A stretch of DNA of 64,000 nucleotides, from NCBI RefSeq assembly GCF_002005225.1, contig NZ_CP019724.1:4853501-4917500 (forward strand). Reading direction: 5' to 3'. Positions 11,807 through 64,000 of this stretch are shown here, piece by piece. Under the pieces are notes generated by a model that ran no database searches, was not told the DNA's origin, and saw nothing but the letters and a program-made list of their open reading frames with translations. Each line of letters starts with the position of its first letter. Position 1 is the first letter of the stretch. The stretch is from Streptomyces pactum. GTDB taxonomy: Bacteria > Actinomycetota > Actinomycetes > Streptomycetales > Streptomycetaceae. Made by a program: the position numbers and the translations under genes.

Positions 11807-11925
11807 GCGTCGTTCGGGTGGAGACCGGCGTCGCGGCTCGCGGGGGGTGGGTGGCGCGGCCCGGCCCGGCATCGCGGTGCCTGCCCCGCTGACCTCCCCG
11901 GCTGCCCTCGGCTGACCTTCCCCCG

Positions 11926-12062
11926 TTGGGTCCCCGGCTCGGGTCTCCCGTTGGGTCCCCGGCTCGGGTCTCCCGTTGGGTCCCCGGCTCGGGTCTCCCG
12001 TTGGGTCCCCGGCTCGGGTCCCCCGTTGGGTCCCCCGCTCGGGTCCCCCACTGGGTCCCCCC
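11926..12062. repeat. 25-bp tandem repeat, about 5.5 copies
   Basis: Units begin at 11926, 11951, 11976, 12001 and 12026, each opening TTGGGTCCC and carrying GGCTCGGGT. The first three are identical, later ones drift by one or two bases, and a partial copy ends near 12062. The array fills most of the 332-base gap (11807-12138) between the convergent cutC and HelD-like genes. That gap holds no credible gene. The repeat is read through by open frames in several registers, but these are by-products of its 25-base period. Confidence 0.93.
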
Positions 12063-20306: not shown

Positions 20307-21344
20307 GTGGGGATCGAGAGCGACCAGGTCGTCTACGAGTACCTGAGCCGTGTCGGCGACGTGGCCCAGCAACGGCAGTTGCCGTCGGCCACCCGCATGC
20401 GGCTGGTCTCCGAGCTGCGCGACGAGATCGACCGGCACCGCGCCAGGACCACCGTGGACAGTCCCGCCGCCGTCCGCCGCATCCTGGACCGGCTCGGCAG
20501 CCCGGACGACATCGTCGACGCGGCGGGCGGCACGAGCGGTGCCCCGCGGCCGTCGGTGCCGCCGCCCACCGCCGTCCCCCTTCAGCCGGAGGGCGGGCCG
20601 CGGAAGACGGACCGGCCCAAGGGCCTGCGGCGCGCCGTCCCGCGCCCCCGCCCGGCAGCGCCCGAGTCCGCGCCCGCGCCTGCTCCCTCCCCGCCGCACC
20701 TGGCGAGCGCGCACGAGCTGGGGGACGGCGGCGTCGTACAGCCGGACTGGTGGCGGGTGGACAGCGGCCCGTTCGGGGGCGGCGGCGACAGTGTGCCGGG
20801 GTTCGTCGGCGGCGTGGAGATCCCGGAGCTGCTCAGGCCCCCGCCGCGGGCCAAGGGCGGGGCGGACGGGGCGAAGGAGGACGGTACCGCCGGGAAGGCG
20901 GCCGCGGAGGTGGTGGAGGAGGCGGCCGGGGAGGCCGCGGAGCCGGTCGCCGGGAAGCCGGGCGGGGCCTCGCGCCGCCGCCTGCCCCGTCTGTGGCCCG
21001 AGGGCGGCTGGAACAACCCGCTGCTGCTGCTCGCCGCCGCGCTGCTGGTCGCCGGCGCGGTCCTCGGCAGCCTCGTCCCGCTGGGCCTGGGCTGGCTGAT
21101 CGCCTACCTCTCCCGCCGCCTGACTCCGGCCCAGTCGAAGTGGGCGGTACTGGGTCTGCCCGGCACGGTCGCCGCCGCCGGCGTCGTGTGGCTGTGGGGC
21201 CGCACGGAGGGCCGCTGGGGCGAACCGATCGCCGAGGGCCACATGAACGACGCCGTCACCGAGACCTGGCCCTGGATCCTGCGCACCGCCGCCGTCGCCA
21301 CGGCCCTGTACCTCCTGTGGCGCTCCCGCCGCCCCCGGACCTGA
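20307..21344 (+). CDS. Membrane protein with N-terminal HAAS-like helical domain
   Basis: This 345-aa protein starts at GTG 20307 after GGAGGGG. Residues 1-75 (YEYLSRVGDVAQQRQLP, RLVSELRDEIDRHRART, VRRILDRLGSPDDIVDAAGG) match the small helical domain often found in bacterial membrane signalling proteins (HAAS/DUF1700 type). A long Pro/Ala/Gly-rich linker follows to about residue 220, then three or four membrane segments (NPLLLLAAALLVAGAVLGSL, GLGWLIAYL, VLGLPGTVAAAGVVWLW, ILRTAAVATALYLLW). Function is unknown. It diverges from the Helicase_C_3 gene. Confidence 0.78.
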   Translation: MGIESDQVVYEYLSRVGDVAQQRQLPSATRMRLVSELRDEIDRHRARTTVDSPAAVRRILDRLGSPDDIVDAAGGTSGAPRPSVPPPTAVPLQPEGGPRKTDRPKGLRRAVPRPRPAAPESAPAPAPSPPHLASAHELGDGGVVQPDWWRVDSGPFGGGGDSVPGFVGGVEIPELLRPPPRAKGGADGAKEDGTAGKAAAEVVEEAAGEAAEPVAGKPGGASRRRLPRLWPEGGWNNPLLLLAAALLVAGAVLGSLVPLGLGWLIAYLSRRLTPAQSKWAVLGLPGTVAAAGVVWLWGRTEGRWGEPIAEGHMNDAVTETWPWILRTAAVATALYLLWRSRRPRT

Positions 21345-21706
21345 CCCGGCGAAACGGCGCACCGGGCCGGTCCCGGCGAAACGGCGCGCCGGGCCGGTCC
21401 CGGCCGAACGGCGTCCCGGTCCGGTCTCGGCGGAGTGGCGTCGCGGGGTGATCCGGCGGAGCGGCGTCGATGCGGTGGAGTGGCGTCCCGAGCCTGACCC
21501 GGCCGGATGGCGCCCGGGGACGGTCCTGGCGGAGTGGCGTCGCGGGTCTGCTGTGGTGGAGCGGCGTCCCGGGGACGGTCCCGGCGGAGTGGCGTTGCGG
21601 GCCTTATCCGGCGGAGCGGCGTCGATGCGGTGGAGTGGCGTCCCGAACCTGACCCGGCCGGATGGCGCCCGGGGACGGTCCCGGCGGAGTGGCGTTGCGG
21701 GCCTTA
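21345..21706. repeat. Modular degenerate repeat array (27- and 19-bp units), left part
   Basis: About fourteen head-to-tail modules begin GGCGGAGTGGCGTC or close variants (GGCGAAACGGCG, GGCCGGATGGCG). Most are 27 bases; two are 19. A block of four modules (about 92 bases) occurs twice, starting at 21455 and 21610 (155 bases apart), with a handful of differences. The array is interrupted by the IS630-type element and resumes at 22877. No credible gene lies in it; open frames across it reflect the 27-base period. Confidence 0.88.
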
Positions 21707-23048: not shown

Positions 23049-23450
23049 CCGGCGGGCCGGGGCCGGGCGTAGGGCCGGGTGTGGGGTCGGGTCGGGGCCG
23101 GGGCCGGTGTGGGGTCGGGCCGGGGCCGGTGTGGGGCCGGGGCCGGGGCCGGGGCCGGTGTGGGGTCGGGTCGGGGTCGGTGTGGGGCCGGGTGTGGGGC
23201 CGGGGCCGGGGCCGGGGCCGGTGTGGGGTCGGGCCGGGGCCGGTGTGGGGCCGGGGCCGGGGCCGGGGCCGGTGTGGGGTCGGGTCGAGGTCGGCGTGGG
23301 GCCGGGTGTGGGGTCGGGTCGGGGCCGGTGTGGGGTCGGGCCGGGGCCGGGGCCGGTGTGGGGTCGGCCCGGGGCCGGTGTGGGGTCGGGTCGGGGTCGG
23401 CGTGGGGCCGGGCGTGGGGTCGGGCCGGGGTCGGTGGGGGGCCGGTTTCG
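23049..23450. repeat. G-rich tandem repeat array upstream of the HAD hydrolase
   Basis: About 400 bases are built from short units such as GGGGCCGG and TGTGGGGTCGGG in irregular higher-order order, strongly G-rich on the + strand. Runs of three to four G separated by one to four bases recur many times, so the strand could form G-quadruplexes. The array ends about 25 bases before the ATG at 23477. Long open frames through it (Gly/Arg/Pro-rich) are artefacts of composition. Confidence 0.85.
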
Positions 23451-59828: not shown

Positions 59829-60623
59829 GTGTCCGACCCGACGCCCGTGATCGACGACCTGCGCGAGGAGAGCGAGGAACTCGACGCGCTGGTCGCCCGG
59901 CTGAGCCCCGGACAGTGGCGCCTCGCCACTCCGGCGCCCGGCTGGACGATCGCCCACCAGATCGCGCACCTGGCCTGGACCGACCGGTCCGCCCTGCTCG
60001 CCGTCACCGACGAGGACGGCTTCCGCGCCCTGGTGGAACAGGCCCTCGCCGCGCCCGACCGCTACGTCGACGACGGCGCCGAGGAAGGCGCCCGGCAGGC
60101 CCCCGCCGAGCTCCTGGCCGCCTGGCGGGAGGGCCGCGCCGCCCTCGACGAGGCGCTGCGCGAGTCGGCCCCGGGCACCCGCTTCCCCTGGTACGGCCCA
60201 CCCATGGCCGCCGCCTCCATGGCCACCGCCCGCCTGATGGAGACCTGGGCCCACGGCCTCGACATCGCGGAGACCATCGGCGTGACGCGCCCGCCCACCG
60301 ACCGCCTGAGGCACATCGCCCGCATCGGCGTCCGCGCCCGTGACTTCGCCTACGCGGCCCACGGCCGCACCCCGCCCGCCGAGCCGTTCCGCGTCGAGCT
60401 CACCGCCCCCGGCGGGGAGCTGTGGACCTACGGCCCCGAGGGCGCGGGGCAGCGCGTCACCGGCCCCGCCCTCGACTTCTGCCTCCTCGCCACCCAGCGC
60501 GCCCACCGCGCCGACCTCGCCCTCACCGCCGAGGGACCGGACGCCGACCGCTGGCTGGACATCGCCCAGGCCTTCGCGGGGCCGCCGGGGGCGGGGCGGA
60601 AGCCGAAGGGAACCCGGCAGTGA
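59829..60623 (+). CDS. TIGR03084-family maleylpyruvate-isomerase-like protein
   Basis: This 264-aa protein starts at GTG 59829 (VSDPTPVIDDLREESEELDA). The MDMPI-like N-domain has WRLATPAPGWTIAHQIAHLA with paired His, and MATARLMETWAHGLDIAETI further on. The C-terminal part matches the actinobacterial TIGR03084 type. It overlaps the atuA-like gene by GTGA, so it is the first gene of the operon. A metal- and thiol-dependent role in acyl-CoA breakdown is inferred from context. Confidence 0.88.
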   Translation: MSDPTPVIDDLREESEELDALVARLSPGQWRLATPAPGWTIAHQIAHLAWTDRSALLAVTDEDGFRALVEQALAAPDRYVDDGAEEGARQAPAELLAAWREGRAALDEALRESAPGTRFPWYGPPMAAASMATARLMETWAHGLDIAETIGVTRPPTDRLRHIARIGVRARDFAYAAHGRTPPAEPFRVELTAPGGELWTYGPEGAGQRVTGPALDFCLLATQRAHRADLALTAEGPDADRWLDIAQAFAGPPGAGRKPKGTRQ

Positions 60624-62293
60624 ACGGGCCGCTCCGCATAGGCAACGCCTCCGGCTTCTACGGCGACCGCTTCGACGCCATGCGCGAGATGCTCACCGGC
60701 GGCCCCCTGGACGTCCTCACCGGCGACTACCTCGCCGAGCTGACCATGCTCATCCTGGGCCGGGACCGGCTGAAGGACCCGGCCGCCGGGTACGCCCGCA
60801 CCTTCCTGCGGCAACTGGAGGAGTGCCTCGGCCTCGCCCACGAGCGGGGCGTCAGGATCGTCGCCAACGCCGGCGGGCTCAACCCCGCCGGACTCGCCGA
60901 CGCCGTACGCGCTCTCGCCGAACGGCTCGGCATCCCCGTACGGGTCGCGCACGTCGAGGGCGACGACCTCACCGCCGGGCACCCGGGAGCGCTGGCCGCC
61001 CACGCCTACCTCGGCGGTTTCGGCATCGCCGAGTCCCTGCGGGCGGGCGCCGACGTGGTCGTCACCGGCCGGGTCACCGACGCCGCCCTGGTCACCGGGC
61101 CCGCCGCCGCGCACTTCGGCTGGGCGCCGGCGGAGTACGACCGGCTCGCGGGCGCGGTCGTCGCCGGACATGTGCTGGAGTGCGGGGCGCAGGCGACCGG
61201 CGGCAACTACGCCTTCTTCGAAGACGGTGACGTCCGCCGCCCCGGCTTCCCGCTCGCCGAGCTGCACGCCGACGGCAGTTGCGTCATCACCAAGCACGAG
61301 GGCACCGGCGGCTTCGTCGACGTCGGCACGGTGACGGCCCAACTGCTGTACGAGACGGGCGGCGCCCGGTACGCGGGGCCCGACGTCACCGCCCGGCTGG
61401 ACACCGTACGGATCGCCCAGGACGGCCCGGACCGCGTCCGCGTCGAGGGCGTGCGCGGTGAGGCCCCGCCGCCCACCCTCAAGGTCGGCCTGAACCGTCT
61501 CGGCGGCTTCCGCAACGAGGTCGCCTTCGTGCTCACCGGCCTCGGTATCGAGGCCAAGGCCGCGCTGGTGCGGGCGCAGATGGAACCCGCCCTCGGCAAG
61601 GTCGCCGACGTCCGCTGGGACCTCGTGCGCACCGACCGGCCCGACGCCCCGACCGAGGAGACGGCCAGCGCCCTGCTGCGGCTCGTCGTCCGGGACGCCG
61701 ACCAGCAGGTCGTCGGGCGGGCGCTGAGCGGGGCCGCCATCGAGCTGGCCCTCGCCAGCTACCCCGGCTTCCATGTGCTGGCGCCACCCGGAAAGGGCGC
61801 GCCCTATGGGGTCTTCGAGGACGTGTACGTCCCCCATGGCGCCGTCGACCATGTGGCCGTCCTACACGACGGGCAACGGATTCCCGTACCCGGCGCCCAG
61901 GACACCGCCGTACTGGCGGAAGTACCGGAACCACCGCTGCCGAAGCCGCTCCCGCCGGGGCCCGCACGCCGCGCCCCCCTCGGGCTCGTCGCCGGCGCCC
62001 GCAGCGGAGACAAGGGCGGGAACGCCAACGTCGGCGTCTGGGCGCGGACCGACGAGGCCTGGCGCTGGCTCGCGCACGAGCTGACCGCCGACCGGTTCCG
62101 GGAGCTGCTCCCGGAGGCCCGCGACCTGCCCGTCACCCGGCACACGCTCCCCAACCTGCGCGCCCTCAACTTCGTCGTCGAGGGCCTCCTCGGCGCGGGC
62201 GTCGCCGCGCAGGCCCGCTTCGACCCGCAGGCCAAGGCGCTCGGCGAATGGCTGCGCGCCCGCCACCTGGACATCCCGGAGGTTCTGCGGTGA
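60620..62293 (+). CDS. AtuA-family acyclic terpene utilization-like protein
   Basis: This 557-aa protein starts at GTG 60620, overlapping the upstream stop. The family core is visible: LRIGNASGFYGDRFDAMREM, GPLDVLTGDYLAELTMLIL, VRIVANAGGLNPAGLADAV, ADVVVTGRVTDAALVTGPAA, CGAQATGGNYAFFED. The end (LGLVAGARSGDKGGNANVGV, LRALNFVVEGLL) is the AtuA C-terminal domain. AtuA was named from Pseudomonas citronellol catabolism but occurs in many acyl-CoA carboxylase operons; its reaction is not settled. The stop TGA lies at the head of the 35-bp repeat chain. Confidence 0.93.
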   Translation: MNGPLRIGNASGFYGDRFDAMREMLTGGPLDVLTGDYLAELTMLILGRDRLKDPAAGYARTFLRQLEECLGLAHERGVRIVANAGGLNPAGLADAVRALAERLGIPVRVAHVEGDDLTAGHPGALAAHAYLGGFGIAESLRAGADVVVTGRVTDAALVTGPAAAHFGWAPAEYDRLAGAVVAGHVLECGAQATGGNYAFFEDGDVRRPGFPLAELHADGSCVITKHEGTGGFVDVGTVTAQLLYETGGARYAGPDVTARLDTVRIAQDGPDRVRVEGVRGEAPPPTLKVGLNRLGGFRNEVAFVLTGLGIEAKAALVRAQMEPALGKVADVRWDLVRTDRPDAPTEETASALLRLVVRDADQQVVGRALSGAAIELALASYPGFHVLAPPGKGAPYGVFEDVYVPHGAVDHVAVLHDGQRIPVPGAQDTAVLAEVPEPPLPKPLPPGPARRAPLGLVAGARSGDKGGNANVGVWARTDEAWRWLAHELTADRFRELLPEARDLPVTRHTLPNLRALNFVVEGLLGAGVAAQARFDPQAKALGEWLRARHLDIPEVLR

Positions 62294-62433
62294 CCGTCTC
62301 GCCATACGTCCCGGAGGTTCTGCGGTGACCGTCTCGCCATACGTCCCGGAGGTTCTGCGGTGACCGTCTCGCCATACGTCCCGGAGGTTCCGCAGTGACC
62401 GTCCCGCCATACGTCCCGGGGAGCCTGCTGTGA
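62290..62433 (+). repeat. 35-bp tandem repeat making four coupled mini-ORFs
   Basis: Four 12-codon ORFs start at GTG 62290, 62325, 62360 and 62395. They encode VTVSPYVPEVLR, the same again, VTVSPYVPEVPQ and VTVPPYVPGSLL. Each ends TGA overlapping the next GTG (GTGA), the last overlapping the carboxylase start. Every unit carries its own GGAGG seven bases before the next GTG (GGGAG in the last). The unit duplicates the natural atuA-carboxylase junction: it contains the atuA ending PEVLR and the downstream VTV start. The period is 35 because 39 coding bases overlap by 4. Confidence 0.9.
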
Positions 62434-64000
62434 CCGTCCTCGCCTCCGCCCTCGACCCCTGTGCCCCCGACCACCGGGCCAACCACGAGGCGATGCTCGC
62501 CAGACTCGCCGACCTGGACGCCGAGCACGCCAAGGCGCTGGCGGGCGGCGGCGACAAGTACGTCGCCCGGCACCGGAAGCGCGGCAAACTCCTCGCCCGC
62601 GAACGCATCGAGCTGCTCCTCGACCCCGACACGCCCTTCCTGGAGCTGTCTCCGCTCGCCGCCTGGGGGAGCGAGTACACCGTCGGCGGATCGCTCGTCA
62701 CCGGCATCGGGGTCGTCGAGGGCGTCGAGTGCCTGATCACCGCCAACGACCCGACCGTGCGCGGCGGCGCCAGCAACCCCTGGTCGCTGAAGAAGGCCCT
62801 GCGCGCCAACGACATCGCGCTCGCCAACCGGTTGCCCTGCGTCAGCCTGGTCGAGTCCGGCGGCGCCGACCTGCCCTCCCAGAAGGAGATCTTCATCCCG
62901 GGCGGTGCGATCTTCCGGGACCTGACCCGGCTGTCGGCGGCCGGCATCCCCACCATCGCCGTCGTCTTCGGCAACTCGACCGCCGGGGGCGCCTACATCC
63001 CCGGCATGTCCGACCACGTGATCATGGTCAAGGAGCGCGCGAAGGTGTTCCTCGGCGGGCCGCCGCTGGTCAAGATGGCGACCGGCGAGGAGAGCGACGA
63101 CGAGTCGCTGGGCGGCGCCGAGATGCACGCGCGCACGTCCGGTCTCGCCGACCACTTCGCCGTGGACGAACCGGACGCGCTGCGCCAGGCCCGCCGCGTC
63201 GTCGCCCGCCTCAACCACCGCAAGGCACACCCCGATCCGGGGCCGGCCGAGCCGCCGAAGTACGACCCCGAGGAGCTCCTGGGCATCGTCCCCGGCGACC
63301 TCAAGTCCCCCTTCGACCCGCGCGAGGTCATCGCCCGGATCGTCGACGCCTCCGACTTCGACGAGTTCAAGCCCCTGTACGGCACGAGCCTGACGACGGG
63401 ATGGGCGGCCCTGCACGGCTATCCGGTCGGCATCCTCGCCAACGCCCAGGGGGTGCTGTTCAGCGAGGAGTCGCAGAAGGCCGCCCAGTTCATCCAGCTC
63501 GCCAACCAGCGCGACATCCCGTTGCTCTTCCTGCACAACACCACCGGCTACATGGTCGGCAAGGAGTACGAGCAGGGCGGCATCATCAAGCACGGCGCGA
63601 TGATGATCAACGCGGTCGGCAACAGCCGCGTGCCCCACCTGTCCGTCCTCCTCGGCGCCTCGTACGGAGCCGGCCACTACGGCATGTGCGGCCGCGCCTA
63701 CGACCCGCGCTTCCTCTTCGCCTGGCCCAGCGCCAAGTCGGCCGTCATGGGCCCGCAGCAGCTCGCCGGCGTGCTCTCCATCGTCGCCCGCCAGTCCGCC
63801 GCCGCCAAGGGACAGCCGTACGACGACGAGGGCGACGCGGCGCTGCGCGCCATGGTGGAGCAGCAGATCGAGTCCGAGTCGCTGCCCATGTTCCTGTCCG
63901 GGCGGCTCTACGACGACGGCGTCATCGACCCGCGCGACACCCGGACCGTCCTCGGCGTGTGCCTGTCCGCCATCCACACCGCGCCCTACGAGGGTGCGCG
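62430..64000 (+). CDS. Acyl-CoA carboxylase carboxyltransferase (beta) subunit, 3' end outside window
   Basis: This frame starts at GTG 62430 (VTVLASALDPCAPDHRANHE) and continues to the edge without a stop: 523 codons, so only a short C-terminal tail is missing if it has the usual length of about 535 aa. Landmarks are VARHRKRGKLLARERIELLL, CVSLVESGGADLPSQKEIF, FGNSTAGGAYIPGMSDHVIM, VFLGGPPLVKMATGEE, LFLHNTTGYMVGKEYEQGGI and LGASYGAGHYGMCGRAYDPR, the acyl-CoA and carboxybiotin sites. It resembles methylcrotonyl/geranyl-CoA carboxylase subunits (MccB/AtuC). The biotin subunit should follow to the right. Substrate is uncertain. Confidence 0.95.
   Translation, partial: MTVLASALDPCAPDHRANHEAMLARLADLDAEHAKALAGGGDKYVARHRKRGKLLARERIELLLDPDTPFLELSPLAAWGSEYTVGGSLVTGIGVVEGVECLITANDPTVRGGASNPWSLKKALRANDIALANRLPCVSLVESGGADLPSQKEIFIPGGAIFRDLTRLSAAGIPTIAVVFGNSTAGGAYIPGMSDHVIMVKERAKVFLGGPPLVKMATGEESDDESLGGAEMHARTSGLADHFAVDEPDALRQARRVVARLNHRKAHPDPGPAEPPKYDPEELLGIVPGDLKSPFDPREVIARIVDASDFDEFKPLYGTSLTTGWAALHGYPVGILANAQGVLFSEESQKAAQFIQLANQRDIPLLFLHNTTGYMVGKEYEQGGIIKHGAMMINAVGNSRVPHLSVLLGASYGAGHYGMCGRAYDPRFLFAWPSAKSAVMGPQQLAGVLSIVARQSAAAKGQPYDDEGDAALRAMVEQQIESESLPMFLSGRLYDDGVIDPRDTRTVLGVCLSAIHTAPYEGA

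Follow-up and report, generated by a model that had tools for sequence, protein, structure and literature searches.

Overlapping mini-ORFs at an atuA/carboxylase junction of Streptomyces pactum: a probable tandem duplication of a stop/start overlap that may work as a translational relay

Mycobacterial MIRUs often occur in tandem with variable copy number. They are short, repetitive and apparently mobile, with a small ORF that is joined to the neighbour gene at −4 nt (Supply et al., 1997, as cited in PMC12548453), and their insertion is thought to disturb expression little (PMC12548453). They are the closest known system to the array from S. pactum that we report here, in which a small ORF likewise shares 4 nt with the start of the gene that follows; however, MIRUs are dispersed, whereas the present unit occurs only in its array within its own genome, and arrays at other loci or in other lineages mostly have their own units, resembling their own junction. 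The array also has the general traits of minisatellites or VNTRs, being a 35-bp tandem repeat whose copy number varies between species, but it differs from them in being frame-constrained and in sitting exactly on a stop/start overlap.

Termination-reinitiation coupled pairs are described in PMC6728339 and PMC12548453; as here, they have a stop/start overlap with a Shine-Dalgarno (SD) sequence before the downstream start, and translating the first ORF favors translation of the second. Coupling is stated there to be most efficient at a spacing of −4 to +3 nt (PMC12548453) and to be often SD-assisted (PMC12548453; PMC6728339), and the way in which a ribosome passes between overlapping bacterial genes is still debated (PMC12548453). 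The cases described there comprise two genes and one step, whereas our array would entail five serial hand-overs, passing through ORFs that have no evident function as proteins. Coupled short upstream ORFs, which in PMC12548453 include designed bicistronic leaders, are similar in that a short ORF brings the ribosome to a gene, but the present chain is located within an operon between two genes, is serial, and apparently originated by junction duplication. A literature search of titles and abstract openings, with most subscription papers outside its scope, did not turn up any account of such tandem relays in Streptomyces.

The window, i.e., the whole stretch of 64,000 nt that was analyzed, contains on its forward strand gene atuA (60620..62293), coding for an AtuA family protein of 557 aa (Pfam PF07287, E 1.4e-147, and PF23544), and a gene for a carboxyl transferase of the acyl-CoA carboxylase type (62430..64000; Pfam PF01039, E 2.9e-144) that continues beyond the window end and whose own end is visible in the corresponding locus from the same genome (L369). 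This locus also shows that atuA itself starts by a GTGA overlap with a preceding TIGR03084 gene (NCBIfam). Just past the window end (L369:4525-4600), the junction between the carboxylase and the next gene, which we take to be biotin-carboxylase-like, contains a GTGA, a 5-codon ORF and a TTGA start, and 15-bp repeats code for SPTSN-like units at the start of the product of this next gene; the downstream start of this junction is not fixed by homology.

Four forward-strand ORFs of 12 sense codons each bridge the atuA stop and the carboxylase start (62290-62433). They were singled out in the original prediction as linked by GTGA overlaps, with a 35-bp period and an SD sequence at each, and all of these features are seen in the sequence and in the output of Tandem Repeats Finder, which delimits a forward-strand array at 62274..62444 (period 35 bp, 4.9 copies, 91% matches, no indels). 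The mini-ORFs (62290..62328, 62325..62363, 62360..62398 and 62395..62433) start with GTG at positions 62290, 62325, 62360 and 62395, and the carboxylase starts at 62430. The first GTG overlaps the atuA stop, the TGA of each mini-ORF overlaps the next GTG, and the last stop overlaps the carboxylase start, all five overlaps being GTGA. A GGAGG lies 7 nt 5′ of the first four of these starts, that of mini-ORF 1 (62278..62282, forward strand) within the last atuA codons and the others at 62313, 62348 and 62383, and a GGAG (62420-62423) lies 6 nt 5′ of the carboxylase start; an SD-like tetramer therefore precedes 5/5 starts of the window array (L001). The mini-peptides are not all identical: mini-ORFs 1 and 2 encode MTVSPYVPEVLR, mini-ORF 3 encodes MTVSPYVPEVPQ and mini-ORF 4 encodes MTVPPYVPGSLL. 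The first two units have the same sequence, from which the third departs at two positions.

A two-unit SD-RTGA pattern produced three matches in the window, all of them in the array, and none in 100 dinucleotide shuffles. The 28-base unit core, allowing up to three mismatches, matched four times in the whole own genome, always within the array, which rules out a dispersed repeat. RNA structure was likewise rejected as a cause of the array, with a fold z of +0.99 and 166/200 shuffles folding at least as well, and an N-terminal extension of the carboxylase from the in-frame GTG at 62325 is ruled out because this frame meets a stop after 12 codons (L050). No internal promoter or terminator was found at 62100-62600, with a promoter scan that fits sigma-70 types only. 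Elsewhere, the window contains a tandem array with a 25-bp unit (11922-12060; 5.6 copies, 96% matches) and long, degenerate, G+C-rich tandem arrays at 21334-21704 and 23054-23446.

The junction was then compared among relatives. Sixty-one genomes were surveyed initially, and 55 of them gave a match. Most of the loci retrieved from the same genus showed a single overlap and no array, but the atuA/carboxylase position of one genome (G015) is occupied by an array with another sequence. The atuA end was found in 371/392 genomes of the genus, and 209 loci with both genes yielded 191 distinct junctions, including that of the window: 159 with a direct RTGA 4-nt overlap, 31 with an insert, and one with a long apparent overlap. 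In all 31 inserts, a start codon overlaps the stop of atuA, and from it an uninterrupted series of ORFs with 4-nt overlaps leads precisely to the start of the carboxylase; overlap or relay thus occurs in 190/191 junctions. Mini-ORF relays account for 27 of the inserts, with 1–5 ORFs of 8 to 52 codons filling gaps of 23–283 nt, and the other four (L027, L028, L030, and L266) carry a gene-sized ORF of 383–407 codons, taken by eye for an acyl-CoA dehydrogenase, also joined by 4-nt overlaps. Ten of the 31 inserts are filed under loci from pattern scans that seek arrays but are blind to frame; leaving out the pattern-scan loci there are 21 inserts in 181 junctions, which is a minimum, since duplicate junctions had been assigned to the pattern loci. 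Out-of-step units (e.g., of 39 or 42 nt) sometimes fuse into a longer ORF, and the chain still closes on the carboxylase (L020, L118, L199, and L309). An SD-like tetramer precedes 41/43 starts after the first, vs. 17% in random 11-nt windows, with the misses in L262 and L332; it is absent from four first starts (L233, L276, L286, and L352) and present at the carboxylase start in 159/159 gap-0 junctions. As for the long apparent overlap (L278), the AtuA frame enters the carboxylase by about 300 nt in a genome that is 55% complete, and it is perhaps a sequencing frameshift.

Within the lineage, the copy number of this tandem repeat changes. Near relatives contain 0, 1, 2, and 4 units: four of 35 nt in the window, two of 38 nt in G224, one of 41 nt in G160 and G270, and none in G142. 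Units are fused in S. tendae (L118), which has the same locus with an AtuA about 92% identical and where two units make one ORF of 28 codons, and in G239, where three make one of 41 codons. The expectation that copy number varies is thus borne out between close species, with one genome per species compared.

Read from the sequence, each unit consists of the atuA end, whose last codons hold the SD sequence, followed by the carboxylase start; in the mini-peptides, MTV is the start of the carboxylase and PEVLR the end of AtuA. Among relatives, the MT with which the carboxylase begins is also found at the start of 23 of the 27 first mini-peptides. Many of them have an AtuA-like end (PE-V/A/E-L), and the shortest is MTVPEELL (L286). 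The inserts of L010, L226, L236, and L325 (4/27) are unlike copies of the junction start and may be of another origin. Since mini-peptides mostly start like the downstream protein and the ends of many resemble that of the upstream one, the majority of inserts seem to be junction duplications that selection has filtered for the ability to hand translation on, and the array of S. pactum looks to have been born at its own junction. The last mini-ORF of the window ends in GSLL, near the ESLL found at the AtuA end in L201, L211, and L118, while the AtuA of the window ends in EVLR like the repeat; from this comparison, the old end of the AtuA gene was apparently shifted downstream by copying. If a junction stretch is duplicated and its length is 2 mod 3, a single GTGA overlap becomes a series of mini-ORFs linked by GTGA overlaps, leaving both proteins unchanged. 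We favor, with a probability of around 80%, that the array arose by tandem duplication of the atuA/carboxylase junction and has been kept as a translated relay. Relay and duplication are not rivals, duplication being a fitting origin; of the neutral junction duplication proposed originally as the alternative, the duplication fits, and neutrality is disfavored by the frame rule described below.

A FastTree tree of 183 junctions, 25 of which have mini-ORF inserts, was built excluding the junction sequence itself; it requires a minimum of 17 changes between presence and absence of an insert, counting gains as well as losses. Random indels of 1 or 2 nt in the inserts kept the chain in 17–27% of trials, vs. 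98% for 3-nt indels, and shuffled inserts of random length kept it in 36%. Seventeen independent successes out of 17 at 36% would give a P of about 3e-8; related genomes are not independent and the changes on the tree include losses, and fewer events would weaken this value, not remove it. Additionally, a frame-blind scan found at least two units before an MTVL start in 14/392 genomes of the genus, all at the atuA/carboxylase junction (L225-L238), and the last-step periods, worked out by hand as match length minus 23, were 29, 32, 35, 38, 41, or 44 nt, all 2 mod 3. The comparison supports that inserts come and go repeatedly at this junction in the genus, and suggests that they are kept mainly when ribosomes can pass through into the next gene.

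Such arrays are not confined to this junction within the genus. A frame-blind three-unit pattern matched in 39/392 genomes, and the reversed pattern in five (read from the table). The 44 three-unit arrays comprise 21 relays into an ORF of at least 70 codons, 13 in-frame repeats and 10 others; their steps are all 2 mod 3 in 24 arrays, all 0 in 13, all 1 in one, and mixed in six. When merged by junction, by eye, the ratio of 2 mod 3 to 1 mod 3 is still about 15–17 to 1. The relays precede at least 10 kinds of gene, with the proteins judged by eye, including atuA; in L041 (G253), a relay of two mini-ORFs lies before atuA itself. A stricter two-unit scan of 150 genomes gave matches in 15, at 17 distinct places, with no reversed match, and a distribution of 13:3:1 for 2, 0, and 1 mod 3 (periods calculated manually; P 0.0018 for 13 vs. 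1).

A second junction, the gene pair of L042, L046, L056, and L185, was picked because the pattern scan showed arrays there. The survey covered 199 genomes, with the upstream gene in 179; 74 loci were taken and 72 were analyzable, and the comparison concerns frame only, since homology does not pin down where the downstream gene starts. Of these, 59 lead directly into the downstream frame, nine do so via mini-ORFs, one has a broken chain and three (L457, L475, and L494) are without overlap; in L046, the last of four mini-ORFs stops about 30 nt short of the ATG. Leaving out the four chosen loci (n = 68), there are 59 direct junctions, six relays, no chains broken inside and three junctions without overlap. 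These exceptions indicate that the frame rule is strong, not absolute. The TIGR03084/atuA junction was readable in 39 of 40 operons, a sample enriched for relays at the atuA/carboxylase junction and including one operon without the TIGR03084 gene; it showed 27 direct overlaps, seven with an in-frame N-terminal extension, five others and no relays. An insert at this junction is absorbed into the protein rather than forming a relay.

A scan of all prokaryotes, with one genome per species and at least 120 stretches, Streptomyces included, returned among the matches listed 47 arrays of 0 mod 3, 31 of 2 mod 3, 22 of 1 mod 3 and 22 mixed. A universal frame bias of SD-RTGA repeats was thus rejected, with a weak excess at most across prokaryotes among these matches, and the frame rule is seen where arrays lie on gene overlaps but does not extend to every repeat of this kind. 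Also among the matches listed, arrays coupled into an ORF of at least 70 codons occur in Pseudonocardia, Amycolatopsis, Saccharothrix, Mesorhizobium, and others, and Rhodococcus arrays are mostly uncoupled 33-nt repeats. Uncoupled GGAGC(C/T)(C/T)GCGGARTGAC repeats with a 33-nt period were seen in L067, L068, L074, L084, L110, L131, and L172, the named ones being from Rhodococcus, and in Rhodococcus sp. 1168 they are found at several loci. Mycobacterium-type arrays (L061-L063, L076, L094, L096, L097, L105, and L149), MIRU-like by eye, have either 53-nt units that are coupled or 52-nt units that are uncoupled.

The best reading of the chain, as judged from comparative sequence data, is a serial termination-restart relay, given that 31/31 inserts, four of them gene-sized, keep the relay, and that this is mostly so at the second junction. 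A ribosome leaving atuA would end and restart five times, on mini-ORFs 1 to 4 and then on the carboxylase, with the SD sequence at each step aiding the restart. The five terminations and restarts anticipated in the original prediction are correct by the layout of the ORFs, and the comparison supports that they may operate as a relay. The mini-peptides themselves are probably without function. Inserts that break the chain would be lost, either because the carboxylase would be uncoupled or because ribosomes would cross its start in the wrong frame. With a hand-over efficiency c per step and a fresh initiation d per SD sequence, added copies would shift the downstream flux from atuA-driven towards d/(1-c).

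Most of the same data would also be accounted for if the constraint merely prevented an out-of-frame overrun of the carboxylase start, the carboxylase using its own SD sequence with no need of a reinitiation hand-over. The SD-like tetramer at the carboxylase start of every gap-0 junction is in line with this explanation, and out-of-frame mini-ORFs would probably run into the gene, stops being rare at this G+C; yet mini-ORFs terminating well ahead of the gene would then do just as well, and they amount to 0/27 at the atuA/carboxylase junction and to a single case, L046, at the second. We hold this explanation to be possible, if on the unlikely side. A copy-number rheostat, with the number of units selected to set the AtuA:carboxylase ratio or varying within the species as a contingency locus, appears improbable: copy number and unit length do change fast among near relatives, and the identity of units 1 and 2, with two differences in unit 3, makes the expansion look recent, but 159/191 junctions have no unit at all, there is no common optimum in the number, length or sequence of the units, and the same kind of array precedes many unrelated genes.

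That the array could be a neutral minisatellite, free of translation constraint, might be argued from the 68 tandem-repeat rows in the window (counting overlapping ones), from the confinement of the unit to this site, and from the ordinary RNA folding. Nevertheless, the occurrence of relays in 31/31 inserts of the atuA/carboxylase junction and the ratios of 2 mod 3 to 1 mod 3, of 24 to 1 for three-unit arrays and of 13 to 1 in the two-unit scan, make it very improbable. An assembly error, which had been put forward as a potential refutation, is probably not involved; indeed, an artefact is barely credible. Units 1 and 2 are identical and would be poorly resolved by short reads, but the genome is a single 8.55-Mb contig, with the exact copy number relying on the assembly alone, and other genomes contain arrays of differing sequence and length at the same place.

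Tentatively, and with considerable doubt, we propose that Streptomyces operons repeatedly grow their own MIRU-like mini-ORF relays at stop/start overlaps, and that the number of steps may be a fast-evolving dial or insulator, shifting the downstream gene from upstream-driven translation to a fixed level set by the repeated SD sites. Across species, the junction carries between 0 and 5 extra mini-ORFs and its chain is intact wherever examined; this constitutes a natural series for measuring per-step efficiency, and the same series allows one to ask whether one ribosome is carried through the whole chain. The atuA/carboxylase case shows how DNA can be added at the junctions of an operon while coupling is preserved, and junction duplication provides a concrete origin for some tiny intergenic ORFs.
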